From positions 6,235,272 through 6,299,271 of the forward strand of contig OY979724.1 of assembly GCA_963855995.1 (NCBI GenBank): a stretch of 64,000 bases of DNA, given 5' to 3'. Every line of letters starts with the position of its first letter. Position 1 is the first letter of the stretch. The notes under the pieces were generated by a model. It was given only the letters and a program-made list of their open reading frames with translations. It did no database searches and was not told the origin of the DNA. Both the position numbers and the translations under genes were made by a program. The DNA is from Muricea muricata. Lineage: Eukaryota; Cnidaria; Anthozoa; Malacalcyonacea; Plexauridae. Positions 37-51,274 of this stretch are shown in pieces.

Positions 37-38
37 TA

Positions 39-687: not shown

Positions 688-690
688 ATT

Positions 691-8528: not shown

Positions 8529-9622
<1,094 letters not shown>

Positions 9623-9625
<3 letters not shown>

Positions 9626-18732: not shown

Positions 18733-18789
18733 ATTTCAATGTCTCAAAAGTATATTAACAAATATAGTCATTACTATTAATGATCTCAC

Positions 18790-23303: not shown

Positions 23304-23560
23304 TCGCAAAAATTGACAAAAACACGCTATTTCAAAACAAAACTATTTACAGACCAAAGTTGGGATAACAAACAATTGAAAAAATACAAAAAGTATAAAA
23401 TAATTCTTCAAAAAACTCGAAAAACATTACTTCGAACTTCTCGACGCTCTATTTTCCTTTTTCGCGCTCCTAACAATATCTTTTTGTTTTTGCATTAACA
23501 AGCCTTGTTTCCATGCTGCGAGAAGGCGCTGTTACTGAGTTCTGCAATTGGCTTATTGTC
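22746..23560 (-). repeat. Right long TIR
   Basis: Inverted copy of 18790-19583. Carries the minus-strand leader exon at 23237-23303, with donor GTAAGT. Confidence 0.88.
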
Positions 23561-23889: not shown

Positions 23890-24034
23890 TGTAATGTTCT
23901 TGTTCTTTATTTTGCTAAATCTATATGTTTGTACAAAGTGACAGCTTGCTTTCTCTTGTATACATGTGCTACTCCTTATATGGTATTACTATTTAAAACA
24001 TCTAACATCAAGTACTCGCTACTGATTTACTATA
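23890..24034 (-). repeat. Ty3/gypsy 3' LTR
   Basis: 145 bp, same length as the other LTR at 28156-28300, with one difference seen (TTCTTTATT against TTCTCTATT). Flanked outside by GTGTT (23885-23889). A purine run (AAAAAGGGGGAG on minus) lies just inside as the polypurine tract. Confidence 0.93.
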
Positions 24035-24062
24035 TTACTCCCCCTTTTTAAAGAAAACATAA

Positions 24063-27000
24063 CTAATCCCAAAATATAGATAAATGTACGTGAACTGTAT
24101 ATTTTGAAAACTTAAACATATTGTTTTGTCCATATCTGTCTGGCTTTCTTCGCCACCTTTCTGATCTTCGTGGTGGTGCGATTAACTGGTCATCAACTTC
24201 ACGGTTCTGGTTTTCTGGAGGAACCGAGTTGGAATTCCTAGATGGTAAGATGTACTCCTCCGAGTCATCAGACGCATTGCCATCACCTGACGTCGTTGGT
24301 CGCGGAATCCGTTTGCAATGCGAGACATTTCGCCTAACTGTGTGACCATCTTTATTCGTAGCTGTAATCTCGCATTTATTCTTGTACGTTACCGTGTATG
24401 GCTCGCTGTTATAGTTGGAAGTCAGCTTATTCCGTCTCTCCTGTCTGATGAGAACGCAGTCGCCGACTTTGACTGAACTTTTCTTAGCATGACGTTTTTC
24501 GTCCGCATACTGCTTGTTATAGGACTGTCGCTTTTCGTCCATTTTGCGTGCTTCGCTATGCCGTCTGACTACACGCTTCTTTAAGACCGGTAACTTGCCT
24601 CGAACTTTCCGATTGAAGAGTAGTTCTGCAGGAGGCACACCCGTAGTTCTGTGTGGCGTCGTACGGCAGTGCAATAAGAATCGTTGTAATTCTTGTCTCC
24701 ACGGACGACCATCAAGCTTTGCGGTCTTCAGGGCTTTGCCCAAAGGCTGCATAAAGCGTTCTACAGTTGCGTTTCCTTGGGGCCACTTTGGGGTGGACCA
24801 CTCGGCTTTAATCCCCAGGGTCTGTAAACAACGGGAGTACTCTTCCCCGTTAAATGGAGGGCCGTTATCTGATCTAAGGATCGCTGGAATACCATGCACC
24901 GCGAATATTTTATCCAGTCTGGGAATGATCACAGGAGCCTTGGTAGAGCTGACAATTTCAACATCTGGGAATCGTGAGTAACGATCTATAACTACGAGCA
25001 GGTACTCGCCTGTCGGGAGGGGCCCATAAAAATCTATGTTCAATACCTCCCATTGAGATTTTGGCATTTGAGTCATTGCAAGTGGCTCCGGTGGGTTTGG
25101 ACTTGCAACAGCTTGACACGTAACGCATTTCTCTACAGTGTTTTTTACTATGTTATCGATCTGAGGAAACCATACCTTCTCGCGAAGTAGGGCTTTCGTT
25201 TTCTGTATACCCTGGTGAGACTCGTGCGCAATGTCAACGGCTCTCTGGCGTAGACTGTGTGGCACAACTATACGATTTCCTCTTAAAATAAGTCCATGTG
25301 AGGAAACGGAAAGTTCATCTTTCACATGTTTATAGTCTTTCACGACCGGCGAGTCCCATTTGTTGAATCTTATCGCTGCACGCAAACCCTTTAGTGTACG
25401 GTCATCATTTGTTGCTTCAATGACTTCCGCGAGGGTCATAGACTTCGGGATGCTTGAGTCTACAATGAAGTTTAAGTACTCTTCTGTCATTTTCTCTTGT
25501 TTCCGTATGCTCTTAGTAGTGGGATGTCGCGATAAATAATCTGCGGGATTCTCAGCACCAGACTTATACACGATTGTGAAGTTATAGGGTTGTAGGCGCA
25601 AAATCCAGCGCTCGATTCTGGCAGAGGCTTTCGCATTTCTTTTCCCATAAATCACCTCCAATGGTTTATGGTCAGTGATCAGATTAAATTGACCGCCATA
25701 CAAAAACAAATGGAAGTGTTCTACTGACCACACAATGGCCAGGGCCTCCTTTTCCGTCTGGGAATAGCGCTTTTCCGGATCAGTCAAGGCTCGGCTTGCA
25801 TAAGATATGACCTTATGGTCATCATGTCCGGGGGTATTTTGTGATAGAATAGCAGAAAGCCCAACTGGACTTGCGTCCACGACAACTGATGTCTGTTTAT
25901 CCTTGTCGAAATAAGCCATGCAAGGGGATGTGGCTAACGCTGCGGTGAGCTTTTTAAAACTATGTTCATGAGCAGTGTTCCAAACAAATCGTGCGTTCTT
26001 TTTCGTTAGTTCACGAAGGGGGGCAGTAAGTGTAGCAAAATCAGGGATGTATTGGCTACTGTAATTAGCCATCCCTAATAAACTTCTTACCTCACTAACA
26101 TTTGCAGGTCGGGGTGCATGTAGTAGATCAGTAACACGTTTTAGGTCTGGACAAATACCATCTTTGGAAAAAATCTGTCCAAAGAATTCAAGGGTGTTGC
26201 TTAGAAACACACACTTGTCTCTGTTCAGTTTTAATCCTTTACTCTTTAAACGACGTAAACAGTTATCCAGGTTGGCATCATGCTCGGCTCGTGTTTTTCC
26301 AAAAACAATAATGTCATCTGCAATATTTCTGAACCCATGAAGACCTTGTAGCTCTCGTTGCAATACATACTGGAAAATTTCAGCAGATGCATTAGTTCCA
26401 TAATTCAGACGTTTGTATCTAAATAATCCGATATGTGTGCTGAAGGTTGTAATATATCTACTTTGCTCATCCAAAAAAGTTGGTGATATGCTTGCGTGGG
26501 ATCAAGCTTTGTAAAATACTTAGCTCAATGGAGCTCAACACTGATATCGTTTACCGTGGGTATGGGGTGTCGCACCCTTTTGATTGCTTCATTTGGAAGA
26601 CGCATGTCCACACAAATCCTCACATTCCCATCCTTTTTAGGAACAGCTACAATTGGTTGCACCCAAGGTGTAGCTTCATCTTCAGGCACACGTTCGATCA
26701 CATCTTCCTTCTCGAGTTGTTGCAAAGCTGTTTTAACTTTTTCCCGGATGTGATATGGAATCCTTCTTTGCGGCTGGGCTTTTGGAGTTTTGGTTTTGTC
26801 TATATCTAATTTTACAGTGGTTCCCCTCAGTTTTCCAAGCCCATTAAACACCGACTTATGTTTATCCAGTATGTTGTCCATTGCAGCATCTTTCGTAGAG
26901 ACACTTTTTAAATTTAATGTGATCAAGCCCAAGTCCTGAGCAGTCGACAGTGAAAGTAAATTACCAGAGTTCTGCCCTTTCACAACATAGAAGGTTGCTA

Positions 27001-28126
27001 CTGACATTCGCTTTTTTGTCTCAATAACAGCGTCAAACTTTCCCATAAAGCTCACTGGTTCAGACTGGTTGTAGGCAAAAGCTCTGGTTTGGGTTGGTTT
27101 AAGGTGCACATCACAAAGTTTCGAATAAGTTTTTTGGTCTATAACATTGATACTGGCTCCAGTGTCCACCATAGTTTTAAATGGCACACCATCAATGTTT
27201 ACTTTTACATACGCATAGTTTGCTTGTTCGCTTTTTACCGAATATAAATAGGATTCATCAGAGTCCGAGTTTGAATCCTGGTTGTCGTGGTGCTGTAAAG
27301 GTTTTACTGTCCGGTTTTTCTTTGGTCTCCTTGCAGTACGCGGAGGTTTCTTCGCACTGCTTCGACATACATTGGCAAAGTGATTAGGTTTGCCACATTT
27401 ATTGCAAACTTTGCCTGTTGCTGGGCAACGACCTTCATGAGGATAACCACGGCCACAGTTCCGACATGTTTGTTGTTCTGACTGTTGCCCTTGTTTTGCA
27501 GTGATTTTATTTGTTTCGGCTTCTTTAACGTCTTTCGACTCAATATCTCTGGCTTGGTACGCACTCTGCTCGTCACGTCTTCCTTCCAGTAACATGTCTT
27601 TTAGTGCGAATTGAGGGTCTCGTAGTGCACGCTTTCGAATTTTAGAAGATGTTCCTCCGATTATTATTTGCTGCTCTATCTCGAATTCCAAGTTTGTGAA
27701 TTCGCATGTCTCAGCTAGCCGTCGTAGCCTTGTATGAAAAGCGTCTAAGGTTTCACTGGGCTGCTGTGTCGTCTGGCGAAAGCAATACACTTCGTAACGC
27801 CTGTTCTTCTGAGGGTCAAAGTACTCTTTTAGTCGTTGTTTAGCAGTATCGTAAGCCTCGTCGTTGCCGGTTTCTGGCAAAGATCGGAAAATTTCCCGCA
27901 CTCGAGTGCCTGCTTGGTAAAGAAGAAGTGCCCGTTTTCGTTTTGGATCAGTTATTCCTGAAGCTACAATAAACATTTCGAAATCTGAGAGCCATTTGTC
28001 CCATCTTGTTGCTAAGCTAGCGCCGACGTGGGCTTCGGGTTTGAATTCAGGCATAGGCTGAATCGCCACGGGAATTGCTTGGTAGGCCGTGTTTACATGC
28101 TCTGCTTGCTGTGGTTCGTCGACCAT
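24063..28126 (-). pseudogene. Ty3/gypsy Gag-Pol with two lesions
   Basis: Minus strand from an ATG at 28126. Order: Gag (WDKWLSDFEMF), two CCHC knuckles (CRNCGRGYPHEGRC and CNKCGKPNHFANVC), aspartic protease (VDTGAS), RT start (WVQPIVAVPKKDG). An in-frame TGA at 26525 and a one-base frame change near 26475 in a T run follow. The frame then stays open: RT palm with IADDI, RNase H (VVVDASPVGLSAILSQ), a zinc-binding integrase start (HESHQGIQ then CVTC), integrase core (NIDFYGPLP, RSDNGPPF) and a C-terminal region to 24063. All domains are present and LTRs are nearly identical, so this is a recently inserted but damaged copy. Confidence 0.92.
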
Positions 28127-28140
28127 GACTATGTTCACTT

Positions 28141-28155
28141 AATCCTCGTCGCCAA
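28141..28155 (-). promoter_or_regulatory. Ty3/gypsy primer binding site
   Basis: Just inside the 5' LTR the minus strand reads TTGGCGACGAGGATT, the position and style of a gypsy primer binding site. The tRNA was not identified. Confidence 0.6.
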
Positions 28156-28300
28156 TGTAATGTTCTTGTTCTCTATTTTGCTAAATCTATATGTTTGTAC
28201 AAAGTGACAGCTTGCTTTCTCTTGTATACATGTGCTACTCCTTATATGGTATTACTATTTAAAACATCTAACATCAAGTACTCGCTACTGATTTACTATA
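28156..28300 (-). repeat. Ty3/gypsy 5' LTR
   Basis: 145-bp partner of 23890-24034, with GTGTT on its outer side (28301-28305), so a 5-bp target duplication brackets the element. Confidence 0.93.
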
Positions 28301-28398
28301 GTGTTCATAAAATATTAATACTTAATGCCAATAATATGAATTTGTTCGTTTCTCTATTACGCTATTCAAACATATTATACAATATTCAAATATTCAAA

Positions 28399-28629
28399 AT
28401 GGCCGCCGTCGCAACAACTGTACTACAGGAAAAACACCAGGAGATCGGGCTGCTGTGCTATTATAACGAAATGACTGCCGCGTACCCAGGCGCTTATGAA
28501 TGTATATATCGCGGGGAGGCCGGGTACGAGGCAGACGAAATGATATTTTACCAAATTGTGAGAAGGGAAGACGTGATACACAACTTTACAGTACACGACA
28601 GATGCTTCCATCATACATGCCCATATTGA
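28399..28629 (+). CDS. Small unassigned ORF (76 aa)
   Basis: ATG in a good context (CAAAATGGCC) opens 76 codons, starting MAAVATTVLQEKHQEIGLLC and ending in a Cys/His-containing tail (DRCFHHTCPY). Local base composition is less AT-rich than the flanks. Its stop lies 6 bp before the mariner terminus at 28636, so the original reading frame may have been longer or the ORF may be chance. No family recognised. Confidence 0.35.
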   Translation: MAAVATTVLQEKHQEIGLLCYYNEMTAAYPGAYECIYRGEAGYEADEMIFYQIVRREDVIHNFTVHDRCFHHTCPY

Positions 28630-28865
28630 ACTACACAGGGTGTAGAAAAAAAAAGAGTCCTCAATTAAAATGTGAATTTCGAAACGAATAAACAGTTAAA
28701 CCTCTATATTTGTGTTTATTAGAAAATGTAGAATTTCAGCTTTTTAATGGTGGTTTATTTATTAAATTCCATGATATTTACAATGAACAATATTTATTTA
28801 AGAAAATGCGGTTGAAAAATTAAAATATGTAGATGGATAGAATTAACTTAATGTTGTCGTTACAA

Positions 28866-29299
28866 TTACTCAACGTAGCCACCATTTCTAAAAACGCACA
28901 AGTGCGCTCTTTGTCTCATGTCCAAGAAAACTCTTCGAAGAAGAGCTAGATCTTGTCGAAGAAGACTCGCCTCATTCTGTATCTTGTTCCTCAGATCATT
29001 GACGTTTTGTGGTGGTGTGCAATACACTTTGTCTTTGAGATACCCCCAGAGAAAGTAATCGCAAGGTGTCAGACCAGGCGAGCGTGGTGGCCACTCAACA
29101 GGAAGATGTAAGGCGATTACACGATTTTGAAAGACTTCTAAAAGCCTGTTTCTTACGGCAATTAGCTGGTGCGCTGGTGCTCCATCTTGTGACCATTAAA
29201 GTCGCTGGAAATGACCGTCTTGAAATTGATTGTCAAACAATTCAATCAGTTGTGAGATAATGTTATTATTCAATGAGGTAGGAATTACCATCGACATTA
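28866..29299 (-). pseudogene. Mariner transposase, C-terminal part
   Basis: Minus strand reads NVDGNSYL at the insertion border, then the catalytic QDGAPAHQ block at about 29190, then EWPPRSPGLTPCDYFLWG, with the last catalytic Asp in CDYFLW, and ends NGGYVE-stop at 28866. Spacing agrees with a mariner DDE/D core. The first catalytic Asp lies in the other part, 11.8 kb away. Confidence 0.87.
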
Positions 29300-29405
29300 C
29301 AGGCCCACACAAACCAGACGCGGCGCGTTTTCACGACACTCGAAGTAAAATAGGCATACAAACCACGCGCGGTAATTTTTCGCGACAAAATTGGGAGAAA
29401 GAAAA

Positions 29406-31220
29406 ATGGCGGATGCTCAAAACTGTGGAGATAAATTGTTGTTGTTACTTTCACTGCTCCACCGGCTTCGGCGATGAAGACGGACTGTTTGGATTCATCC
29501 AATATTGAGACAAAGGCAACAACTTGGGGAATTTCATCGTCTCGTACAAGAACTTCGTCTAGATGACCAGCGCTTTTTTCAGTACTTCAGAATGACACCC
29601 GAAACATTTGAAAACTTATTGGCTATCGTTGGACCTCATATTCGAAAACAAACCACAAACAATAGAAACCCTATAAGTCCGCAACAGAGATTGGCCATTT
29701 GCTTAAGGTAAAAACAACTAAGTTATACGTGTAGTAGGTTGTGGTTGTTGCTTTTCTTGTGTGATGCTAGGGAATGGCAAAATATTAAAATGTCCCATTC
29801 TGGTCTGGCGAATATTTTATATGAAATAATTTTTTCATAATAAACAGTGTGATAGATTTGGTTGTCATTGCAAAAAAGTTATCAAGGCTATATAATATTT
29901 GCCCTTCAGGGTTTTGTTACGTGGGTATCCCAGGGTAAGGGTATTTGTATGCTTTTCATACCGGTCCTTCTGCCTTCAAGTAGACTAGTCTAGATAGACT
30001 AATCTATGAATGTAAATAACAGCTTTTATTTTCGTGAAGCCTGAAGGTGTTGTTTTATACTTGCTTAATTTATTTGATTGATTTCATATCATTGAATAAT
30101 TGTTTGATACAAATACGCTTTGCCTTCATTTTCTTTAAAATTTTCCAGATTTTTGGCAACAGGCAATTCATATAAAACCATTGGATTTAGTTACCGTGTT
30201 GGTGCACCCACTGTTGAAAGTATTGTTGCAGAAGTATGTCAAGCAATTTGGACATGTCTGGTAAACCACTACATGAAAGTTCCCCCAGAGAGTGAATGGC
30301 AAGCAATGGCTGAAATCTTCAGGAATAAATGGAATTTTCCAAATTGTGTAGGGGCTATAGATGGGAAGCACATTGCTTTCCAAGCTCCACCCAATTCTGG
30401 TTCTCTATACTTCAACTATAAAGGAACATTTTCTATAGTTTTGATGGCTTTAGTTGATGCCAACTACTGTTTCACATTGTGGATATTGGGAGCTATGGAT
30501 CTAATAGTGATGGAATGATTTTTCAAATTGCCTACTTGGTCAAAGGCTGGCAGGGAACCAACTTAATCTTCCTGTTCCTATTGATCTGCCTGGGGCTTCC
30601 TTACTAGGTAAGGTAAAATCAAGATTTTTTCTGCATTCCACTCACTTGACCTTAATCATAGGGCCAAAGGTCTGATTCTTGCTAGAGGACCAAGTTTTGT
30701 ATTTTTTTTGCAGCCATCCTGGTCAGGTCTAAAATTGTATGTATTATTTCGCTCCAATTATCTAACTACTAAACAATATTATTCTTTCTTATTAGGTCCT
30801 ATGCCATATGTAATTGTTGGAGATGAGGCATTTCCTCTGAAAACCTATCTTTTACGTCCCTATCCTGGAAAAGACCTTTCAATTGATAAGCGTATATTCA
30901 ATTACCGGCTTTCCAGAGTACGTCGAATCTCAGAGAATGCATTACTGGCGCAACGATGGCGTATCTTTCAGAGGCGTATTAATTTACATCCAGAGCAATG
31001 TGAAAGGGTTGTCCAGGCAAGTTGTGTGCTCCATAACTACCTACAGAAGTCTACTGGAAATAGCACACCAGCTGATGTTCAAGATGAAAGGGATGGCCTT
31101 CAAGAATACCAAGCCTTGCAAAATTTTACAAATATGGGCTGTAGAGCATCATCTGATGCATATGTTGTTAGGGTTAAGTTTAAATTGTATTTCTGCATGG
31201 GTGATGGAGAGGTTCCATAG
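29406..31220 (+). pseudogene. PIF/Harbinger transposase (three exons, damaged)
   Basis: Exon 1 (29406-29707) starts MADAQNCGDK, has a TGA near 29475, then FFQYFRMTPETFENLL and PISPQQRLAICLR before a GTAAAA donor. Exon 2 (30149-30607) continues in phase as FLATGNSYKTIGFSYRVG, then the first catalytic Asp in VGAIDGKHI and ALVDANYCF; a one-base loss near 30480 shifts the frame before the second Asp block (GSNSDG). Exon 3 (30796-31220) holds YVIVGDEAFPL (third acidic residue) and the RISENALLAQRW tail. Domain order and lengths fit Harbinger transposases. Not functional as it stands. Confidence 0.88.
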
Positions 31221-31521
31221 CAATACACTACAGTTCAGAGAGGATTAAATCGTAGTGTCTGACAGTGGCCAATAACAGTGTCTAACATTTATAATTGTAA
31301 CTTATAACTATATTTCAGCATTAATTAGACTGTAAATTACTTGTTAGTAAATAATCTGTTTTGATCAATGGTAATGGAACATATTGTATTTGTAAGGGCT
31401 AAATATTCAAAAAGGTTTGTTGTAATCTTTTACTATAAAGGGAAAACGAAAACCAAGCAACATGATCTTGGAAGAGAGATCATTAATAGTTAATACATAT
31501 TTTTTACACTTTTGCTAGTCT

Positions 31522-32464
31522 TTACTTGTCAAATTCAATATCATACAGCACTTGCTGTATGCACAGTTTGGCTAGTCCCTTCTGTTGGTCTGTCATGCGT
31601 TTTAAGGTAGGAATAATGCTCAAGCCAAAGACTTGCTCTTCAGATTTTTCAGGCATTTTATTTTTTGCATCCAAATATTTTATGATTTGCTCTGAAACTT
31701 CATCACGTGGCTTTCGTCTCTTGCCAGCTAATTTAGGGTTGACACCAGGAGTTGGTGGACGTGATGTAGATGCAGTGGTGGGGGCACTTTCTAGTAGTTC
31801 TAAACTAGAGCATGAAGCAGAATCCATTTCATCTTCGTCTGGGCAAAAAATGGCCGAATCATCTGCAGACAAAACGTTGTCTTCTGAGCTTGATTCCATC
31901 CTGTTTGAAGAAGTCCTACCAATTATATTAGTAAGTAAATAAAATAGTATGTTGCTAGTTTTGAATATTTAAGAATAACTGGGGAAATAAATGGGGTCCG
32001 CTCTTGATGGAACAAGTACCAAAATAACAAATTCTGCAATCAGATTTACCTTCACTTGTTATTTCGGTGTATGGCTCCAAAAAAGACAAACTTTTTTTAT
32101 ATTTCCACTCTTTATTTTTACTTGCTCCTTCACCACTTCTCCCTTTATCACCTCTTTTAATCTTAACATACGTATCACAAAGATTCTTCCACCGTTTTTT
32201 AAGAAAGTTCACAGTTGAAAAAGAAGTTGATTTTGTGTAAAGTTCAATTTCTACAAACAAGAAAATTACTGCTTAAAAGCCTTACGCTTCAGTGCACTCA
32301 CCATCAATATCTAGCTCGGTAGAAATGCTTGTCCATATGTTTTCTTTCAGCTCTTTGTCTTTATAGTATGGACCCGTTTTGTCATATAATTCCTCATAAT
32401 TTTGAACCAACAAAATTACCCGCTCATCTATGGTTGGAGTCGCCATATTTTCTTTGATTGGCAT
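31522..32464 (-). CDS. MADF/Myb-like accessory protein of the Harbinger element
   Basis: Convergent to the transposase. Exon 1 (32302-32464) encodes a MADF-like start (VILLVQNYEELYDK, then IWTSIS); a second ATG at 32446 has a better context. Exon 2 (about 32050-32250) supplies FLKKRWKNLCDTYVKIKR, the conserved K..W..L..Y element. Exon 3 (about 31522-31915) is acidic and Ser/Pro-rich, with a C-terminal helix. PIF/Harbinger elements characteristically carry such a DNA-binding partner needed for nuclear import and transposition. The last splice junction did not resolve in phase, so boundaries there are approximate. Confidence 0.75.
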
Positions 32465-32681
32465 GTTTTTCTTGATTTTTTTCTAGCCCTGTGATTGGTC
32501 AGAACAGCGCGAATTATATCACAGCGCGGAAAAGGTCGCTCTGCGAGCGAACTTTTTTATATCGCTAAGCGAAAATTCACCTGTTCGCGTCAGGTCTGAA
32601 CGTTTTTTACCAAATACAGTACATTGATTTTATGTTGGCCGCGCTACGATACAAAAACGGCCGCGCCGGGATACAAAAGGA

Positions 32682-32880
32682 ACCTTAAGATTTACGACGC
32701 GGCAGCTCGACGACGCGGCTTCACAACAAAAGATATTTTTATAGAAGACAACAGCCATGAATAATTTGTGGTGCCAGGCGTATTCTCAAGTGCGTAGCCA
32801 TGCCTAATAGAACATCAAACTGAGAATTATCACGTCCCTTGGGCAACGGGAAAGCATGCTACGACGTAAGAAGCGTTTTG
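32682..32880. mobile_element. Partial MITE end related to 17849
   Basis: GGAACCTTAAGATTTACGAC followed by two GACGCGGC-type repeats resembles the left end of the MITE at 17849-18235. No right end was found, so it is a truncated copy or part of the Harbinger leader. Confidence 0.4.
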
Positions 32881-32954
32881 GAAGTCCAACTAGTTAACAT
32901 GCACAACTTGACGAAAACGAACGAATATTCAGTTATGTTAATGTCTATCCATAG

Positions 32955-33085
32955 GTAGCCCACTAATTGATGGTATATTTTATGTGATGCGCGCGGTCCA
33001 GTTCAATGCGCGGTCAGCTTGTGATGCATCAATGTTTACATCGACCGCGCTATCACAAAAAAAATACCATCAATTAGTGGGCTAC
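32955..33085. mobile_element. 131-bp hairpin MITE
   Basis: GTAGCCCACTAATTGATGGT at the left is repeated inverted at the right, ending GTGGGCTAC. The sister copy at 745-770 lacks it, which proves insertion. The centre is GC-richer (GCGCGGTC repeats). Confidence 0.88.
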
Positions 33086-33544
33086 TATGGTCTAGCACAT
33101 ATTTCACGCAAATTATGCGAGTACTTTTGAAATTAGTTTTAACGCATAGGCACGTAGCAGCCATGGCTGACGACTTATATGTGATTGAGGTACTTGTTGC
33201 TGAGCTGGATGTGGTTGGTGGGGATGTGGTTGAGCTGCTCGTTGCTGAGGTGGACGTGGTTGGATGGGGTGTGGTTGACGTAGTGGTTGACGAGGAAATG
33301 GAACTTGCTGTTGGGGTAATGGCATTTCTATACGCTCCTTATCGCATGATATGCTTCTTGACGTTGCTCTGGATTTGCAAAATTGAATGGGTATTTTGTT
33401 TATACCTTTGCAAAAATCGATGTTAAGTTTGATTACTGTACTTACTGCCTTACTTCACGATGAACGTAGTCTCGAACTCGCCTACGCACAGAATTGGTAA
33501 CCAATGTGTGGTAACATTCGAGATTTCTTTTAATACCATTGACT

Positions 33545-33642
33545 TAGACTTGCTACAAGTCGATTCGCATTAAAATAAAAACAAACAGGCGAGCGCGAGC
33601 TCCCGAGCGAAGCGAGGGCGAGTCGACTTGTCGCGCTTGCAA
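33545..33642 (+). repeat. AcademH left TIR
   Basis: The outer GACTTGCTACAAGTC is itself a hairpin; an inner GAGTCGACTTGTCGCGC repeats part of it. GC-rich middle (CGAGCGCGAGCTCCCGAGCG). Confidence 0.92.
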
Positions 33643-33853
33643 CGCGCCAAACTTTACCGACTCGAATCCTAGTCGGTGCTGTATTAGCCAATCAAATGCA
33701 AATGTCGAGAATTGCCAACGTGTTAAGATCGTTGGCTTTTCCCTGTTTATTTATGTTTATGCGTTGTACACTCATACGCCGCACTAAAAATGAAACATTG
33801 TGAGGAATATTGTGAAGAATTACAATAAATAAATAGTTTGAATTTGTTCTGTC

Positions 33854-35911
33854 ATGTATTCGATTAAAGATGCGATTAGTTACGGTCTGAGAAAGCTTGG
33901 ATTTGATCAAATAAAAGAAAATCAGCGGCAAGTTGTAGAAGCATATCTTGCCGGTCGCGATGTTTTGATGGTGTCGCCAACTGGGTCAGGTAAAAGCCTT
34001 ACTTTCCACATTGCACCGTTTGTTTACAACTATTTAAAGCATGGTGAAGAAGAACAAGTGTATTCCGTCTGTCTTGTTATCGTACCACTATTGTCTTTAA
34101 TGAGAGATCAAGTCGCAGCTCTACAACGAAAATGTATCGCCGCTGTCTCTTTGGGAGCCGATACAACTGACGAAGAAATTGTAGGAATCAAAGAAGGCAA
34201 ATATAACATTATATTTGGTACCCCAGAGTCAGTCTTAAGGAGTTACCGATACTTATTTCGAGGGTTTCTCAAAGAAAGGATTGATGTTGTCTTTGTTGAT
34301 GAAAGTCATTGCGTGGCAAAATGGTTAGTATGCAATATAGTATAGGGTTTAACATTTGACTTGTGCTTTTCTGTTGTCAAAATATTGATACTGTGGTGTA
34401 AACTTATTCAATCATATTCATAGATATGAAATATTTTGTAATGCTTTCAGTAAACCTTGTTAAAACCTTTGTCAATACCTTTGATGCATTTTTGAAACAG
34501 GGGACAAGACACTGAGTTGGAAGAGGCTTTCAGAGCTGAATATGGTCATCTGTCTGAACTGCGATCAATGCTAAGGAGAGACGTTCCTTTTGTTGCTTTG
34601 ACTGCAACTGCTACAGATGCTGTGAGAACTACAATAATCAAGGATTTATGTATGTTTGGTTGTGTTCAGCTATTAACTGTACCTAACAAGCCCCATACAA
34701 AGTTCTCAGTTGAAACTGTAAATGTTGATGATCTGTATAGTGCCTTCAGCTGGTTAATTGATGAACTAGAGCAGAAGCAGCAGGATACAGCAAAGGTTCT
34801 CGTTTTCTGTAGAAAACGAGCACACGTTAGAGATCTCTATGAACTGTTTCACGAGCATCTTGGAGAAAAGTCGTATGTCTGTCCTAATAGAACTCAACCG
34901 AAGGATGACCGAACAAGACTGTTTGCAATGTACCACCGAAGGACACATAAGCAGGTAAAAGAAACCGTGGAAAAGGAGTTTTGTAAGGCAAATGGCATTG
35001 TAAGAGCTGTTTTTTGCACTGTGGCATTTGGAATGGGTGTTGATGTGAAGGGGGCACAGCTTGTGATCCATTTAGGTCCTTCCAATGCACTTGATGACTA
35101 CCTTCAAGAATGTGGTCGGGTTGGCCGAGACACCAACGAAATGTCCCATGCTGTTCTCTTAAAGTACAAAGGGTGCACTTGCAGCAAAAACATTTCAAAA
35201 CCAATGAAAGAGTATATTAAAAACACTAGTAAATGTCGCCGAATAGTCCTCATGAAGGAATTTTCAGAAAACCCAAGTAAGGGTGATATTGGACATGCCT
35301 GTTGTGACATTTGTACTAAAATTTGTAAGTGCAAATGCCATTGTTCCACACCAAATTGCACTTGTTCTGACCTTTGTCAAGATGCTGAATATATGTCACC
35401 AATTTCATCTCATCTTACCAATGCCACTGCAGTAAGGAATGAAAATAGTGCTGACAAAGCACAGAAAATGGTTTCAAGCCAAATGATTTCAGAAGTTAGA
35501 AGGCAGTTGCTTGAATACCGGGCAAAACTGGCTAACAACATACCACATGAAAGGCTTCTCACTGGATTGGACCTGGCATCAGGGTTTTCAAGAGCACTAA
35601 TAGACCATGTAACATCTTCACTTCATTTGATTGACAGTTATGAAACATTGCAAAAGAAGTTCAACTTTTTATCAATCGAACATGCAAAGTACACTTGGAA
35701 AATAATCTCAGATATAATCTCTGATGTACACTCAGATAGTGAAGAGGATGCAGATGTTTCAAGTGCTATTTCCAATTCAGATGAAGACGACAATGAGGTC
35801 AAAGACTCTACTAGTGGCACAGACACTGATGACTGTAATGCTATACGAACAGCACAAAGAATATATTTAGACTCTTCAGATGATGAACACTCCGGCATGG
35901 ATGAACTGTAA
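33854..35911 (+). CDS. RecQ-like SF2 helicase of AcademH
   Basis: Two exons: 33854-34323 (ends before GTTAGT) and 34501-35911 (after AAACAG), joined in phase within a Trp codon; 626 aa with no stop. Exon 1 has the Q/0 region, Walker A SPTGSGKS (41-48), VPLLSLMRDQ, and DESHCVAKW (149-157) with the Walker B DESH box. Exon 2 begins GQD and has ALTATAT (189-195), VLVFCRKR, AFGMGVDVKGAQLVIHLG, ECGRVGRD (RecQ-type motif VI), then a Cys-rich zinc-binding segment (CRR, CCDIC, CKCKCHC). The C-terminal 130 residues are acidic and Ser-rich. Expected role: unwinding DNA during element movement. It is convergent with the transposase. Confidence 0.93.
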
Positions 35912-36123
35912 GTTAAAGGAAGTTGTATTGCACGTACCTGTAGAAGTAATTAGAGACTTAATGAATCTAAATCATGACATTTTGCATGTTATTCAGCCTT
36001 TCTTTATAATATATAGTATATACAAACAAAATTGGTAGTCGCTACAAGGTTGCTACATACATGTAGTCTTATAAACTTCAAAGAATTTTTTATATGTGAG
36101 TGAGTATAGGCTATAGTAATAGA

Positions 36124-36276
36124 CCTCTGAAGTACTTATGTCACACCATGGCATGCAGTGTCAATCAAACAATTAATTGCAAACTGGAAATCATACAATC
36201 TGGGAAACATATGGGACAAAATTGATCTCAGCAAAGTATTAATAGAAAACTGTGTGACATAAGCACTTCTGAAGTA
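36124..36276. repeat. Inverted repeat between the convergent AcademH genes
   Basis: CTCTGAAGTACTTATGTCAC near 36125 is mirrored by GTGACATAAGCACTTCTGAA near 36254. It lies in the 510-bp gap between the 3' ends and could fold both transcripts' tails. It might instead be an old small insertion. Confidence 0.55.
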
Positions 36277-36421
36277 CAATATATGAGTAAGTCATTTTAG
36301 AGGAATTCTAATCAATTATAGTCTGTTGACAATTAGATTAAGATAGTGATTTTATATAATAATTATGGTTAGAATTACCTTTAACCATGTAGCCCAAATA
36401 GTTTTATGTTACAATTGTTAA

Positions 36422-39400
36422 TTAACTGCATGTATTTGACACTGTTTTTCCAAATTGATAAAAATGCTTCTTGCTAAATTTTCGAAGTCTTGTGCTAATC
36501 CACCCCTTTAGCTTTTCTGGTTCAATTTCACCAAGTAGGTTGTGAGGCATGTTAGGGAATGCAGAGTGTTTTCGTCCTGGTATCTGAGCATAAATCTCTA
36601 AATGCTGAAGGTGGTCAACCAAGAGCAATATGTCCTCTTCAGTGGACTTCAATAAATGTTTCCCTGAAGGTGTTTTGACACAGGTTGTTTTGTCATAAGA
36701 GGCAAGAATGGTATTTGTAGGTTCAACACTTTTACTGACACGAGCTATGCTCTTGTCAGTAATTTCACCTCTGAAACTATGAATATCGTTCTTAAATGCC
36801 TTGTTGTCGTGCTCAACAGACAAATCCATTGGAAAGTTTGTGTCCACATGGCCTTGGTTATTTACAAAACGGTTCCAAGTAAGGGAGTATGCAAGGCGGG
36901 GGCTCAGTAAACAGTTCACTTGGGCCAGTAGTTGTAGAGTAGCAATGGCATACTTTGGGCAATTTGAAACTTTAAAATACAAACAAAATAATTTGTACAA
37001 TCTAATTATTCTTTCACCATCTCCAAGACTGATTGCATTGTTATGATTTAATCTCAGCAGAAGTAGAATGAGTACCTGGTGTGTATAATTGTACACTTTG
37101 TCAGAACCTCCGCTCTGGATCTCATCAGCCATTTCAATAGCTGTTTGTTTAAATCCATGTTTTTTCTCCTCATGCTTTCTTAGTGCTGGTGCCTGAACAT
37201 ATTTTCTTTTACAAAACCTGCATGTTAGATCATTTGATATTGGAGCTGTTGTGTTCATTTCTGGGACTTGGTTGATAACATGCTGCTCAATAAAACTTCT
37301 TATTACTGTGCAAACATGTTGCTTCTTTCCTTCTGGGTCATTCAGCAAACCATTGTACTTGTTGACTGTTGGCTCACCATCTAGAGACTGCATTCCATGG
37401 TGGTTCATAGCTCCTACAATCAGGTAGGCATTCAGAACTTTATCTGCAAATTCACTAGCAGCATAGAAATTGCTGTGAGGATCATCCGACACATTACGTG
37501 CATCAAGCACATTCCTTGCTGCATAGAGGGTGCCTTTATCACGTGCAGATGCTGTACTGTAGAGGTGATGCCATATAACCTACATTATATGAAACATAAA
37601 TAAATTTTTAAAAAGAACTTTAGCACAAAAAAATAAAATGAAAGAGGCTCAACAGGGCATCCAAATTTCCACTTAATGCAATGGCTCAAATGGTAGCTTT
37701 CCAAAATTTACCTGCTTAATTTGTTAGTTTTAAAACCTAACTGATTCTTAAATATTAGCATGCTTTGTACAAACCTTCAGCCATTCTGCCTGGTCATGAA
37801 AATCTTCAAATTTTGCAATAATACCCTCCAGCCGTGCTGATGGCGTCCGAGCATCTTGCATAGCAGATTGTGCCCCTTGGTATCTTTCAAATGAAAGATA
37901 ATCTCCTCCAACGAGAAGTTTGGTAGGAGATTCATTCTCTTCACTGTGACCTGGTACATATTGGTGCAGCCATTCCAGAATATCAATCATATCCTCCTCA
38001 TACTGCTCATTCTTTCGGAGAACACCAAGATGAACCTGAAAATTGAAGTGTGCATATCTAGTTAGTTTTCAAAACTGAAATACCAGCAGCTGTAAATCCT
38101 TGTGACCCATTAGGCTAAAATATTTGAAATTTAAACTTAAACTCATATATGTATTACAATATCTTACATTTTACTAATTTAGTTTACCTTCTCTGTTTTC
38201 CTTTTTGTTTCTTTCATGTTTTCATGTTGTATGTGCTTTGGTATGTAATCAGCATACCATGCTAGAGCAGGAACATACTCTGTCCACTTGTTACCAACCA
38301 ATACAACTAATTCTTCAACAAGCTGCAACTGCTCCTCTGCACTTGGAAGGAATGTTGTAAATGGCTCTTGATTAATGTCCCGCTTGGGTTGGTCATCAGG
38401 TAAGTGATTTGGGCTAATTCTGTTCTTAAATGCCACAGTTTGAAACATGTGATGATCCTTGGCCTTGTTCTTAATGGTCATCTGTCGTGGAAGCACTCTC
38501 ATATCCACATTATCACCGGTAAAGGAGTAGCCAGGATGCATCTGTGCACGATGTTCTTCTAATTCTTTCACAGCAGACTTCACGACATCCTGACCTGAAT
38601 TCTCCCTTTCCAGTTTCAAAATGCTTGCCATGAGCTCTTTTTCCTTTCTTACTCCAGACTCGACTTCTTCCTTCCACAACTTTATTGGAACATCAAAGTC
38701 TTCCCCATAGGATTCAAACATTCTTGATGTAGCATCATAGCTCATGCAAATATGCAGAGCTGAGAGTCTCTTTACAGCGACTTTCTTTAATCCTCCTTTC
38801 CTCAGTATAACAGACCTGATCCTTCTGGTAGCATTCATATCTTTGTTGAGTGCGGACACAAGTTGTGCTCCAGCGTCACACATCAAAGACTCAATCTGCT
38901 TGTGAACATTTCTTGATTGTGATGGATTATGCACACAAGCACTTAAGATTTGCAAGTATCGTGGCGTTCTTGACGAAAATTCCTGGTGTAGATTATTCCA
39001 TGAAAATTCGATAAGGTCTTCCTTTGCTGTCTTCCGTAAAATGGATGGATTAGACTTTGCGCAAAGTCCAGATATTTCCATGGTGAGATCAGCACATACA
39101 ATGTCGTATACTGCATCCTTTGTGTCTGTCTCATTCATAACTGCAGCTGCAATTGACTTTGGGGTACCAAAAGCCAATTGACGCCCAATCCGGTAGAATT
39201 TCTGTGGGAGCTCCACCGATTTTGCACGTGTATTTTCATAGTTGACAACAACCTAATGAATATAATATTTTATTAAATGTAAATTGCATGTGATTAAAAA
39301 CTATTATTAAATATTGTGGCCTTATTTATATTCCACGAAAAGCATGAAGCAATGTTATTGTGGTACACAAAACGTCAAATACTTACATTTACAGTTGAAA

Positions 39401-39848
39401 CTTTTGATATCTCTTGATTAATTAATGTTTCACTCGAACAATCAGTTTCAGTTTGTCGGAACAGTTCCCTAGATGGCCGCTTTGATGAAGCCCTGTCTGT
39501 ATTCTCTGGCCTACACATTCGCTTTACTGACGTTACTTGCCCTTTTGATTGCAGAATCTCCTGCGTATTTTTAAACTTTTGTCTTACGTCGAGAATTTGT
39601 TTTCCATAGTTACTGTTTTTTGTCGCACAGTTTCTGCACACGATGTTCGTCAAAGATTGTTGGTATTCAGTTATCTCCGCTCCCAGCAAAAGCTCGAGAT
39701 CGACACACGCGTTCGTTTTTCCTTTAGACGTGAATAGTTTTCTTCTGTAATCGGCTCTTTCTACTTTTTGATAGCAGATCAAACAATAAAACTGCTTAGT
39801 TTGGGGGGAAACGTTTGCCCTTGAAACGATTTTAGTTGGCGTTGCCAT
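36422..39848 (-). CDS. AcademH transposase
   Basis: Four minus-strand exons, all joined in phase 0 at GT-AG sites: 39387-39848, 38188-39252, 37775-38035 and 36422-37579, about 981 aa without a stop. The N-terminus has Cys22-x2-Cys25, Cys48 and Cys71-x2-Cys74, a zinc-binding arrangement like the Cys-rich N-terminus described for Academ. Exon 2 covers a long helical region. Exon 3 starts VHLGVLRKNEQYEED. Exon 4 contains a C2H2-like finger (CRFCKRKY, then HEEKKH, about residues 716-737) and ends NTCS-stop. I cannot place the catalytic acidic residues with confidence. Strict phase-0 structure and open frames suggest purifying selection or recent arrival. Confidence 0.9.
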
Positions 39849-39984
39849 TCATTGTTATGAAGTCATGTTTTTGTAGCGTGTGAAGTGTCAAACTTATAGC
39901 AATGTGTCAAATTCACGTGTTGCAGGGAAAATCCATTTTGGCTCCGCCTCATTGTAATATTACGCGCCAATGAGATGCAATTTT

Positions 39985-40082
39985 TTGCAAGCGCGACAAG
40001 TCGACTCTCCCTCGCTTCGCTCGGGAGCTCGCGCTCGCCTGTTTGTTTTTATTTTAATGCGAGTCGACTTGTAGCAAGTCTA
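39985..40082 (-). repeat. AcademH right TIR
   Basis: Inverted copy of 33545-33642, ending GTAGCAAGTCTA, followed by CCATTGACT. Confidence 0.92.
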
Positions 40083-41112
40083 CCATTGACTATAATATCC
40101 CACAAAGCACCGTGTTGCCGATATTGCTCTGCAATGATAAGCCTTCCTTTTACGTTTCCAATCTTTACGTGGAGGCATTGCTAGAAACTTGTTATCTTAC
40201 TAAACATGTGGAATTGTCCGTAACCTCCCAAGAGTATAAAAATTTCTATGAGCTTCGTAATCAACTAGCCAGTATAAGAAATTTTTCATGATGCAACGAC
40301 ACGCAGTGTGAATGTAAAATAAGTAAACCCTTTCAAATTTAATAACCATACATAATAGGCATCATGCAGCTATATGTAAACTTGACAGCAATAATTGCTT
40401 TAAATAAATGGTTCATAAAATTCTACGCTCTTAAACGCATGGAAAGTTAAGTTCCAACCGTATGAAACAAAAGAATTTAAGTCTAGTCCTCACTAGCGAC
40501 ATAAGCATAAGCAAAATAACAAACTTAAAGGATAAATTTTCCTCGGAGGTTTACAAAAGCAAAGCAGAAAGAATTTTCTTTTGAATTTGCCTTTGTTCTG
40601 CCATAGCTTAAAGCCTCGTAGTCTTATGCTTGTGCTTATGTCGATGCTTATGTAGCACGCTTCGGTGGATATCTTTGTTTTGTTTTACTTGTGCTTATTG
40701 TTATGTCGATTAATCTGAATTTGAAAGGATTGATGTTTTTACGCACACTGTTCACAGTACATGATTTGAATATATCACCTTAATTACTTGACGAGAATTT
40801 ATAATTTCTCGTGTCGACCAATACGAAAGCGAGTTTATACGCGTTTAAGCAACCTTATCGTTCAGCTAATGAAGCTATTTGTTCGTTTTCGTTAACTTGT
40901 GTATGTTAACTACCTGTAGCAGAAAGCATATCGTTTTGGCCAACAAAAATATTTGTAAGTTACTAAAACAAGCTTCAAATAGTTATTAAAACAATCAAAT
41001 TCCAAAAAGCTTCTTCCTGTACTTATATATTGACACCGCGTCTTCGAACTTCCCGCATTGTCGATCTTAAGCTCCCTAATATTCATCGCGCCGCGTACGG
41101 TTTGTGTGGGCC

Positions 41113-41757
41113 TTACGAGCGAAGAAAAAAGGCCAAGCAGGGCGCCATTTCCACAAATACCCATCCAAACAGTTATCTTCGACCTTTCATCGCGCCTTTC
41201 ATAGTTAAAATCTGGCGGAGCCCCTCTTGGTGCGCACTGTCGGACGTTATGCGAATTCACTTCTCCATTCATACAAAACGCCGCCTCATCGCCAATCACA
41301 ACATTCGCCAGAAAACGAGGATTTCGTTTTTGGTTCGAAAACCATTCGCAGAAGTTCCTTCTTCGAACGTAATCACCATCTTTCAATTCATGGCGAATTC
41401 TTATTCGATATGGATGCCATCTCAAATCAAGCCTCGTGATCCTGTTAAACGTCGCGGACGGCAGACCGAGGCCGTTTCTTCTTGCACTTACTTGTGGATT
41501 ATTCTGAAGATGCTCTCGTACCACCTGAATGTTTTTTCTGATCTACCAGTCCTTTTTCTTCCCGGATTTCCCTTATCCCGGTTTAAACTGGTACCATGTT
41601 GCCGGTATTTGGTAACATTGCGCCAAACGGTTGAAGAAGATGGCGGATTACGACCAGGAAAAGCTATTTGAAAGGATCTTAGCACTCCAGCAACGCTTTT
41701 TGTTTTAAAATAGTTTTCAACAATGAAAATTCCCTCTGCAGTCGTTAACTTTGGCAT
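41113..41757 (-). pseudogene. Mariner transposase, N-terminal part
   Basis: Starts MPKLTTAEGIFIVENYF at 41757 with the N-terminal helix-turn-helix (SSSTVWRNVTKYRQHGT). A frame change near 41520 leads into REHLQNNPQVSARRNGLGLP (second HTH), then IGDEAAFCMNG with the first catalytic Asp, and KITVWMGICGNGALLG. A one-base loss precedes the Harbinger border. It continues 11.8 kb away at 29299. Confidence 0.85.
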
Positions 41758-42393
41758 GATGCTAGGTGATTAAAAAGTTTAAAACGCCAGCCTTTAAAAT
41801 TCTTAATTTAACCTCATGTCCCAAGGGACTTGCAAAACCAATAGTTCGAAGCATCTTGAAATGGGCGCTTGCACTAAATTCCTTTTTATGTGATTATCGA
41901 TTGACTGAAACACACAAATGATCACGCAATGCAAAGACGATGGAAATAGCGTTTAAGCAAGCCCAAAACAAAACTTTAAAAGCATGTTTTACGTGAGATA
42001 TAACAGTATTTAAGATGACTCCATTTTTTTTTTATACACCCAGTATACTGGCAATCCTTGGATATTTGATTTTGAAGCTCCTTTGGCCTTCGAACTGGCA
42101 CGGTGGCACCATCCAGGTCGACTGATAGTTTGGAACTAGACTTGCATTCTAAAATCACAACAGTCTTTCTGTATGCACTGCATAGTTTAACTGGGTACAT
42201 AGTGGAATGAAAACATGGATAAATTCAACTACAGTTACAGATCAGAGTTTTCTGTAGAAATTTGATTCATTATCAGCTCTACAATTACATTATAAGGAGA
42301 TTTTACATTTTTTTTCATAGGCGGCCCAATTCAGTGTGTAGTTTTATATAGAGATCAATGCGCACATAAACACACTTCATGCATTATTTAAGT

Positions 42394-42571
42394 TTAGAGA
42401 CTGTTGTGAGTGTTTTGTTTACAAATACACGCACGAGCTGAATGTACAATGAACGAAAAATTTTGTATACGAGGCCGCCGGGGCCGAGTGCAGTATACAA
42501 AATTTTGAGTTCATTGTACATTAAGCAAGTGCGTGTATTTGTAAACAAAACACGAACTTAACAGTCTCTAA
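42394..42571. mobile_element. Foldback MITE, nearly full palindrome
   Basis: Arms starting TTAGAGACTGTT and including TGTTTACAAATACACGCAC are inverted around a GC-rich centre (GAGGCCGCCGGGGCCGAG). Inserted in the left arm of the long-TIR element. Confidence 0.8.
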
Positions 42572-46707: not shown

Positions 46708-46916
46708 TGTTGATATATGGAAATCAGTATGTATAAATGGGGACATGTGTTGACATTAGTATATATATTAGCAGGTTACGTAATGCTGAAGGCGGACACG
46801 TGATCGGACGTTCGTTGTACGTTGTTACGTTGTTATGTTGAACAAAAGGTGTATTATATTTTTACATGTTCAAAGTATATTCTTCAATAAATACGTATAT
46901 TCCATTAAAGTTAACA
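46708..46916 (+). repeat. Ty1/copia 5' LTR
   Basis: 209 bp, TG...CA, and read as identical to 51066-51274. GTAAC precedes it (46703-46707). Confidence 0.97.
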
Positions 46917-46931
46917 GGTTATGGGCCCAGA
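46917..46931 (+). promoter_or_regulatory. Copia primer binding site (internal tRNA-iMet)
   Basis: GGTTATGGGCCCAG starts directly after the LTR. It is complementary to the anticodon-arm sequence CTGGGCCCATAACC of initiator Met tRNA rather than to its 3' end. Drosophila copia uses the same kind of half-tRNA primer. Confidence 0.85.
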
Positions 46932-46941
46932 CTATTGAAGA

Positions 46942-49900
46942 ATGGACAGTAATGCAGTAAAGTGGTTATGTTTTACTGGATCAGCTGAGGATTATCCAGC
47001 ATGGAGTACAAAATTTACGGCTTTTATGCAAACAAAAGGGCTATTTAAATCGTTACTCGGCAAGGAAGTTATACCAGAAGAAATCGCCCCTTTAGCTGAA
47101 GATGCTTCAGCGGAACAACAAGCACAGAGGCAGGCTAAAGTTCAGCAACGAAACAAAGAAATTGAAGATATTAAAGAGCGAAATAATAATGTTTGGTGTC
47201 ATATTGCGTTGGCGCTAGACAAAACAAGTTTGATGTATATTCGACACGATTGTTTATCCCAAGACGGTACGGGTGACGGCGCAAAAGCATGGCGTTTACT
47301 GCAGCAACGTTATTCCAACGTAGAAAAGCCTACCGTAGTCAGTTTAGTGAGACAAATATCCCGTTTACAGCTCGGAGAAGACGAGAAATTACATGAATAT
47401 TTCATACGTGCTCAAGAACTCATGTCAAGGCTCTCGGACGCAGGTGAGCAAATAACAGAAACTCTGTTCAATGCACTAATTATCAACGGCCTTCCTGGGA
47501 AATACGAACATTTTGTTGTTCAAGAAAGTTTTAATCCAGCATCGACATTTACTGAATTGAGAACCCGTCTACAAAATTACGAGGACAGTCGTATACAAAG
47601 AAAACAACCGGAAGTCGATTCGTCAGTGGCAATGCACACCGGAAGTAAACGTGACGGAAATACGAAAACACCAATGCAATCCAAAGTTTGTTATGTCTGT
47701 GGAAATTCAGGACATTTTGCAAAACAATGCAACAAGAGAGGCACAGCAATTTGCTCCAAATGCAACAAACGAGGTCATTTAGCCAAAGTCTGTAGAAATT
47801 CTGAGAAAGTGGGTAAATCTAAAAGAAACGATGAAAACGCAATATCATCTTATTCAGAATGCTTCCTCAGTCCTTTACAAGAAAGAAACGACAATCCAGA
47901 GGTTTCAAGTCATCTAATAGTAGACACTGGTTGCTCAGACCACATTGTGAACCAGAAGGACGTATTTACAAATCTACGTAAAGTTGATGAAAAGAGCGTT
48001 AGAGACCCCAAAGGAAACTTCACAGCAGTCGAAGGTATTGGTGATGTGCCAATAACAGTCGAGTTAAAAGATGGAAAAACGACAGAGTTAATTCTAAGAA
48101 ATGTGTTATACGTGCCAAATTACAAAGTCAATCTTCTTTCAGTTAACAAAGCAGTCAACTTTGATCACAGGTTCATCTTTAACGATGGCAGAGCAAGGAT
48201 GGTATTGAGTGATGGTCGTGAGATACATTTAACAAAGAACTCTGGCCTTTTCTTCTTAAAAGTTACTTACCTGAATACAGTTAACCCATCTACCTGCAAC
48301 GAAACCAGACAATGCGTCAAGGGAGATATAGATTTGTGGCACAAACGTCTGGGACATCTTAACAAAGTCGATGTAAAACGCACTGTGGGTTGTGGAGGCG
48401 ACACAGAAGATACATGCGAAACGTGTGCAATGGGAAAACAAGCAAGTCAGCCGGTTCCAAAGAAAGTTGTGGATAAAGCAAGGAAAGCTCTGGAACTTGT
48501 ATATTCAGACATTCTTGGTCCTTTCGAAGTGGCTAGTTTAAACGGATCAAAATACGCAGTTACCTTTATCGATGAGTACACGAAGTACGCAGTCGTAAAG
48601 TACATGAGAAACAAGTCAGAAGTGATCGACAAGTTCAAAGAATATGTTGCCGAAAACGGAACACCCAGAACACTACGATCAGATAACGGAGCTGAATATA
48701 CCTCACGTAAATTCAAAGAGCTCTGCAGAGATTTGAAGGTTAAACAAGAATTTACAGTCCCGGAAACACCACAGCAAAATGGAGTCGCGGAGCGCTTCAA
48801 TCGTACACTAGTAGAAATGGGACGGTGCTTACTTATACAAGCAAAGCTTCCTAAGAAGTATTGGGTAAGAGCCTTAGATACCGCTACGCACATCCGAAAT
48901 CTCACTGTCAGCGCAAATAGCAACGAAGGAAAGAGTCCTTTCGAGCTCTTTACCAAGAAGACGGCAAGAAGAAACCACCTCAGAGTGTTCGGCTGCACAG
49001 CGTACGTGAAGAAGAGAAACGTCAACCTACGAAAGCTCGATGCCAGATCAGTAAAGGCAAAGTTCGTTGGCTACGACAGCAAGAGCACAGCCTACATACT
49101 ACAAGATCTGACCACGAACAAAATAATTAAAGCACGCAATGTACGCTTTAAAGAAGATGAAATCCAACCTTTATCGTCTAAAGAAGAGCTTCACCAAGAA
49201 GACACGATTTTGAAGAGTCCCAATCTAGATCTCAACGAGGATTGTTTAAATGAGCAAACGAAAGAGAAACCTGTCGGGGATGAAGTGGGGGAAACTGAAA
49301 ACGAAGTTCCAAATGCACCAGAACAACTACCAGATGAAGAAGAAGATCTTGGAGAAGAAGAACCACTCCCAAGAGCAAGTAGAAATAGACGACCTCCTGA
49401 AAGATATGGGAATCCCTATACCTTCTGCGCAATTCAACATGAGGAAATCGCAACAGAACCGAAAACCTACGAAGAGGCTGTAAAGTCAAACAAAGCCAAG
49501 CAATGGAAAGAAGCAATGCAAGCAGAGGTTGAGTCACTAGAGAATAACGACACTTGGACATTTGTTGACAGACCGAAAGACAAGAATGTTTTACCAGGAA
49601 AATGGGTATACAGAGTCAAATACGGTGCAGATGGTCAAGTGGACAAGTACAAAGCTAGATATGTGGCGAAAGGCTACGCGCAAGTCGAAGGGATAGACTT
49701 CTTCGAAACGTATGCACCCACATGCAAACCGGAGACATTCAGGACCCTGTTAGCAGTTGCAGCTCAGAAAGATTTACATCTCGGGCAAATGGATGTAAAG
49801 TCAGCGTATCTTCACTCAGCTATTGAGGAAGAAATCTACTTAGAACAACCACAAGGGTTTGTTAAACGAGGACAAAACGGAGAGACCCTAGTTTGCAAGC

Positions 49901-51006: not shown

Positions 51007-51055
51007 ACTTTAAAAGAAAGCAGCAGACTCATCATAGACACAATAAAGTTGAGTC

Positions 51056-51065
51056 TGAGTGGGGG
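51056..51065 (+). promoter_or_regulatory. Copia polypurine tract
   Basis: GAGTGGGGG lies immediately upstream of the 3' LTR, the usual place for plus-strand priming. Confidence 0.8.
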
Positions 51066-51274
51066 TGTTGATATATGGAAATCAGTATGTATAAATGGGG
51101 ACATGTGTTGACATTAGTATATATATTAGCAGGTTACGTAATGCTGAAGGCGGACACGTGATCGGACGTTCGTTGTACGTTGTTACGTTGTTATGTTGAA
51201 CAAAAGGTGTATTATATTTTTACATGTTCAAAGTATATTCTTCAATAAATACGTATATTCCATTAAAGTTAACA
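51066..51274 (+). repeat. Ty1/copia 3' LTR
   Basis: Read as identical to the 5' LTR; followed by GTAAC (51275-51279), completing a 5-bp duplication. Confidence 0.97.

Follow-up and report, generated by a model that had tools for sequence, protein, structure and literature searches.

Temporal ordering of nested transposable elements is established (REANNOTATE; PMC2672092), and the same source places 46% of the DNA elements on human chromosome 2 inside another repeat. PIF/Harbinger elements are described as having a 3-bp TTA duplication and separate transposase and Myb-like genes (PMC2836001), the DD41D class, or VS mariner, is named together with its TA target in PMC8472432, and AcademH is low-copy in fungi according to PMC10799480. 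The locus described here lies in a 64,000-bp stretch, hereafter the window, of the genome of the anthozoan Muricea muricata (assembly GCA_963855995.1, contig OY979724.1, positions 6,235,272 to 6,299,271 of the forward strand), and is a nest of six DNA transposons on five levels. From outside to inside, it consisted of a mariner, a PIF/Harbinger element, a ~382-bp miniature inverted-repeat transposable element (MITE2), and a non-autonomous terminal-inverted-repeat (TIR) element of ~1.3 kb, which contained two separate inserts, a hairpin (MITE1) and an AcademH transposon. An initial annotation of the window had proposed four levels and five elements, all DNA transposons. The element types and the order mariner, Harbinger, TIR element, AcademH/MITE held, whereas MITE2, between Harbinger and TIR element, raised the levels to five and the elements to six. 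The borders of the initially annotated elements were set by inverted-repeat search and alignment of element ends, and the parts of the nest were as follows.

28632-28633 (left) and 42044-42045 (right): TA target duplication of the mariner, placed by inverted-repeat search, end alignment and an empty homologous locus joining here
28634-29299, minus strand: mariner, left piece, 3' part of the transposase gene, with 41 residues from the second to the third D
29297-29299 (left) and 41113-41115 (right): TTA target duplication of the Harbinger
29300-32677, plus strand: PIF/Harbinger, left piece
32678-32892, plus strand: MITE2, left piece, borders accurate to ~3 bases
32891-32892 (left) and 40911-40912 (right): TA flanking the TIR element
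32893-33544, plus strand: TIR element, left piece, which holds the hairpin MITE
32950-33089, plus strand: MITE1, a 140-bp hairpin, flanked by GTCTATC (32943-32949) and GTCTAGC (33090-33096)
33545-40082, plus strand: AcademH transposon, 6,538 bp, flanked by CCATTGACT at 33536-33544 and 40083-40091
33854-35911, plus strand: AcademH helicase gene, inferred exons 33854-34323 and 34501-35911, 626 amino acids, DEAD and Helicase_C
36422-39848, minus strand: AcademH transposase gene (DUF6589), inferred exons 39848-39387, 39252-38188, 38035-37775 and 37579-36422, 981 amino acids
40083-40910, plus strand: TIR element, right piece
40913-41079, plus strand: MITE2, right piece
41080-41112, plus strand: PIF/Harbinger, right end with terminal repeat
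41116-42043, minus strand: mariner, right piece, 5' part of the transposase gene, with a DUF4817 helix-turn-helix in 41491-41769
690-1807, plus strand: TIR-element copy without the hairpin MITE and without AcademH, right side cut by a CAGGGTGT end
38-688, plus strand: TIR-element copy, right part only, stopping short of both insertion sites

Joined flanks were expected to align to empty copies elsewhere in the genome, and this was borne out for each of the six sites. At least one insert-free copy per insertion was found in the window's own genome, so that chance is no reasonable account of the nest. For the mariner, one locus on C3 joined both outer flanks with 270 of 334 aligned columns identical (one of 43 rows; best 40 of 1,216 candidates scored), and the TA target was present on both sides of the element. 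The sequence hit by the mariner (28310-28633 and 42046-42400) was non-unique: the C3 locus matches it on either side of the element, and on the left the first ~150 bases were part of a dispersed repeat. For the Harbinger, which splits the mariner between two TTA copies as initially annotated, 24 matches were found besides the two halves of the nest (26/26 candidates scored), of which 11 spanned the junction and 13 fell short. Base-by-base reading of nine of these spanning copies found every one empty and joined at the TTA position, with TTA present once in two close copies and TTT in seven distant ones. The mariner reading frame had also been taken to show this pre-insertion site. Indeed, with the insert removed, one frame of 176 codons runs across the junction, but the gene was already degraded, with a stop next to 29195 and its N-terminal part in another frame, and the empty genomic copies are therefore the better evidence.

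A query made by fusing the two flanks of the TIR element did not match a handful of Harbingers but a high-copy, dispersed repeat of ~382 bp, with 418 candidates genome-wide (best 40 scored), while MITE2 was absent, with a direct join, from both Harbinger copies that reach its site (2/2). On these two grounds, the TIR element is inserted in MITE2, and MITE2 in the Harbinger, rather than the TIR element directly in the Harbinger. The fetched MITE2 copies (29) carried their own inverted termini AGGGACCTTAAG...CTTAAGCTCCCT, and their flanks looked unrelated by eye. In the same search, all 39 other long rows ran through the TIR-element site, two short minus-strand rows being set aside, and the 29 fetched copies were continuous (29/29). 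Further hidden layers were looked for through relatives of the Harbinger, AcademH and mariner, and none was found: a Harbinger copy on C70 matched through 29298-30640 (92%), another copy (L060) matched 30627-32677, and the mariner relatives taken together covered the joined mariner. A Harbinger copy on C70 (L061/L065) was itself interrupted by ~3.6 kb between 24742 and 28338.

Both inserts of the TIR element were placed as the initial annotation had them. AcademH was flanked by a perfect 9-bp duplication and MITE1 by one of 7 bp with one mismatch (6/7). The AcademH site was run through by 39/39 other main rows (best 40 of 96 scored) and empty in 8/8 fetched copies; the MITE1 site was empty in seven of eight fetched copies and not found in the eighth. 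It was also claimed that two TIR-element copies inside the window, at 691-1350 and 39-687, display each pre-insertion site. The copy at 690-1807 does so for the two innermost insertions, whereas the other four required copies from across the genome. The second copy was rejected as showing the inner sites, as its match to the TIR element was confined to the right part, starting at 40269. The two copies stand end to end, with only TATTA between them (686-692).

Taken together, comparison within one genome has established how the elements are layered, where their borders lie and what all six sites looked like before insertion; that each jump took place at the present locus we infer. The nest very probably arose from independent cut-and-paste insertions that piled up at one chromosomal site. 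In the proposed history, the mariner would have entered a TA of non-unique sequence, and the Harbinger would then have entered the mariner transposase gene, duplicating TTA. The ~382-bp MITE2 would have followed into the Harbinger, near its right end, and the non-autonomous TIR element into MITE2 at a TA; last, and separately, MITE1 (7-bp duplication) and AcademH (9-bp duplication) would have entered the TIR element. Nesting cannot give an order of AcademH and MITE1 relative to each other.

We also tried to order the layers by their substitution loads, as an independent clock. Compared with the majority of its relatives, the nest copy differed at 22/868 positions for the mariner (2.5%), 72/1,908 for the Harbinger (3.8%), 9/378 for MITE2, 33/1,195 for the TIR element and 2/93 for MITE1, with majority thresholds of 60-80% depending on the family. 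The relatives were three for the mariner, five for the Harbinger, the 29 best-matching for MITE2, ten for the TIR element (of which L087 and L088 were much more diverged) and five for MITE1. The outer four layers thus carried a load of 2.4-3.8%, and the intervals of all five, MITE1 included, overlapped, so that the clock failed for the outer four layers. In AcademH, 6,474 gapless columns held 15 changes private to the nest, about one tenth of the load of the outer layers (Fisher p ~1.5e-16 against the TIR element, computed with 6,483 columns). Because the other intervals overlap and AcademH is far lower, the order comes from the nesting, and the substitutions set apart AcademH only.

Several observations weigh against a simple stack. 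The left ends of the mariner and Harbinger have extra bases compared with their right ends. The left flank of MITE2 lacks the TA found beside most of its relatives, and no clean duplication of it occurs in the Harbinger. The TIR-element junction is off the MITE2 relatives by a few bases (CCAACT-TATAGC vs CCAAC-TA...TA-CCTGTAGC). These imperfect borders presumably reflect later small changes. Nor does the load fall steadily inward: the Harbinger looks older than the mariner, contrary to the nesting, though not significantly (3.8% vs 2.5%, p 0.11). The searches have their own limits, as only the best 40 of 418, 96, 246 and 1,216 candidates were scored for the TIR-element site, the AcademH site, MITE1 and the mariner flanks, respectively, and the TIR-element-site and AcademH-site searches favour empty copies. 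An occupied copy appears there as two weaker halves (in the AcademH-site search, the nest itself is listed by its left half only, at rank 36), and the 39/39 counts therefore prove the existence of empty sites, not the absence of occupied ones.

This last point matters because inner layers acquired elsewhere could have come as a package, for example if the TIR element already held MITE1 or AcademH before entering MITE2. Nesting by itself shows that the host preceded the guest, not that the guest was inserted here, since elements can move while carrying inserts; an insert of 140 bp does not keep a non-autonomous element from moving, and the two site searches just mentioned are poor at listing occupied copies. 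That the order "follows directly", as first stated, was to this extent slightly too strong. However, the searches able to reveal a composite copy turned up none, which makes local stepwise insertion the likelier course. Among the best 40 of 246 candidates, the nest alone covered the whole of a query running from TIR element through MITE1 to TIR element. All nine AcademH candidates were scored, and the sequence beside the three other full-size copies does not resemble the TIR element, as read at five of their six flanks; the left flanks of all eight fetched TIR-element copies differ by eye from the MITE2 site. Likewise, 0/14 other rows run from mariner into Harbinger (13/13 candidates scored), and the divergence of AcademH is far below that of its host TIR element. 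Arrival as a package is, on this evidence, improbable.

An assembly artefact, in which separate repeats were wrongly joined, has the smallest probability of the alternatives considered. Every layer is a repeat, the AcademH copies are so close (0.55-1.57% apart from one another) that a mis-join is conceivable, and the sequence is known here from the assembly alone. Yet wrongly joined repeats would not be expected to have matching duplications around the Harbinger (TTA), AcademH (9/9) and MITE1 (6/7), or outer flanks that are joined in a homologous locus, and the nested AcademH has 15 changes of its own. It is also quite improbable, though not to the same degree, that MITE2 is the Harbinger family's own right end, separately amplified, and not an insertion. 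Its position ~33 bp from the right end of the Harbinger and the lack of a clean duplication would fit such an origin, but two Harbinger copies join directly without MITE2, and the 29 fetched copies have termini of their own and flanks without visible relation to each other.

The outer layers could be assigned to families to different extents. DUF4817 was the Pfam match for the mariner N-terminus, whereas a Pfam search of the two C-terminal pieces gave no family and no transposase-domain match. The second and third D are separated by 41 residues, and the first D was placed by eye in VIGDEAAF. In D spacing and TA target, the element agrees with DD41D/VS mariner as named in PMC8472432, and it is provisionally given that family name. 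In the Harbinger, pieces of a DDE_Tnp_4 transposase lie on the plus strand within 29478-31217 (Pfam, 2.4e-15 in one piece and 5.7e-05, under the curated cut-off, in the other), and Myb/SANT (MADF) and BESS pieces of a second gene lie on the minus strand within 31525-32482 (MADF 1.1e-07 and 3.8e-06; BESS 4e-06). The 3-bp TTA duplication, DDE_Tnp_4 transposase and Myb-like second gene identify it as PIF/Harbinger. It shares the duplication and the separate transposase and Myb-like genes with the elements in PMC2836001, and differs in that its second gene is of MADF/BESS type and its transposase frame is apparently broken, near 30477 as read by eye.

The arms of MITE1 are common to larger elements, from ~130 bp (L067) to ~880 bp (L068) among the best 40 of 246 candidates scored. 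Among five fetched relatives, the duplication was 7 bp in L067, L068 and L069, 8 bp in L070 and absent in L071; the family ends are CATAGG..CCTATG, with changes, and no transposase was linked to MITE1. P-element-like MITEs, a candidate group for MITE1, have a 7-8-bp duplication and CA..TG ends. For the TIR element, the candidate group is a TA-target superfamily, with a TA duplication and a related transposase. It had TA on both sides in four of eight fetched copies (L090-L093), an end being diverged or not found in the other four. It gave no Pfam family in one frame and in the other only a weak RhoGAP-FF1 match (E 0.057) under the cut-off, and an Rfam scan of the window at gathering thresholds returned nothing useful. 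Both TIR-element copies in the window are cut at TA, at 1-38 and from 1808 onward, by ends of mariner type (ACTCACCCTGTA and TACAGGGTGTCCC). This points to further activity of mariner-type elements once the TIR element had spread.

The innermost AcademH is the least altered layer. Its two genes, read as spliced genes on the exons given above, are open frames matching DEAD (2.6e-22) and Helicase_C (1.3e-13) in the helicase and DUF6589 (5.1e-39) in the transposase (Pfam), and its terminal inverted arms of 98 bp are identical at 96/98 positions. We take DUF6589 to be the Academ transposase; a literature search pairing the two found no paper, and a near-identity search of a phage collection with the transposase gave nothing useful. 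The target duplication of AcademH is 9 bp (or 10 bp). Four full-size copies were found, the nest and three on C1, the latter 0.55, 0.72 and 1.33% from the nest. They align end to end save for small gaps and, in L086, an additional ~200 bases close to the right end. Three of the four, the nest included, have a perfect 9-bp duplication, with different letters in the two others, and the right end of the fourth was not located. The nest copy and L085 have open frames for both genes, while the helicase has one stop in L084 and is out of frame in L086; the nest transposase gene has 9 bases fewer than the other copies, in frame. As a young, low-copy element with open genes, the nest AcademH is a possible subject for studying how a helicase-bearing transposon moves.

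Other elements occur around the nest. Just to its left, an LTR (long terminal repeat) element at 23890-28300 has domains of reverse transcriptase, RNase H and integrase, and its 145-bp ends are 99.3% identical. Another hairpin element lies just to its right (42394-42571). A Copia-type LTR retrotransposon at 46708-51275, with identical 210-bp ends and one open frame of 1,354 residues, is apparently young. Two largely self-complementary elements of ~790 bp (9618-10408 and 57565-58354), with ends CAGGGTGTA / CATGGTGTA and 91% mutual identity, are perhaps non-autonomous mariner foldbacks, and an inverted pair at 18788-19583 and 22745-23559 is 92.5% identical over 817 columns.

A tentative and rather doubtful extension of these results is that the site acted as a recorder: four unrelated DNA-transposon families would have landed there in too little time for substitutions (2.4-3.8%) to order them, nesting would be the sole clock, and the youngest layer would be an AcademH with both genes open, 0.55% from its nearest sibling and maybe mobile. 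AcademH was reportedly described by Kojima in 2020. As far as that description is reflected in two citing papers (PMC10045372, PMC10799480), the nest element shares the helicase beside the transposase and the inverted ends, and no distinguishing feature was found in it. Among the listed papers on how deeply and in what order insertions nest, which dealt with methods and with the genomes of plants, fungi and cnidarians, none describes the present locus. Nested transposons are commonplace, and five levels of DNA transposons only make the nest a good example rather than a new type of system; the general view of transposons is unchanged by it. Its worth is as a clean worked example of transposon stratigraphy, with six pre-insertion sites matched by empty copies within one genome, in which nesting orders families whose divergences overlap. 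Compared with the clusters in the REANNOTATE source (PMC2672092), the nest follows the same guest-after-host ordering, and differs in having only DNA transposons as its six members and, for every pre-insertion site, an empty counterpart in the same genome.

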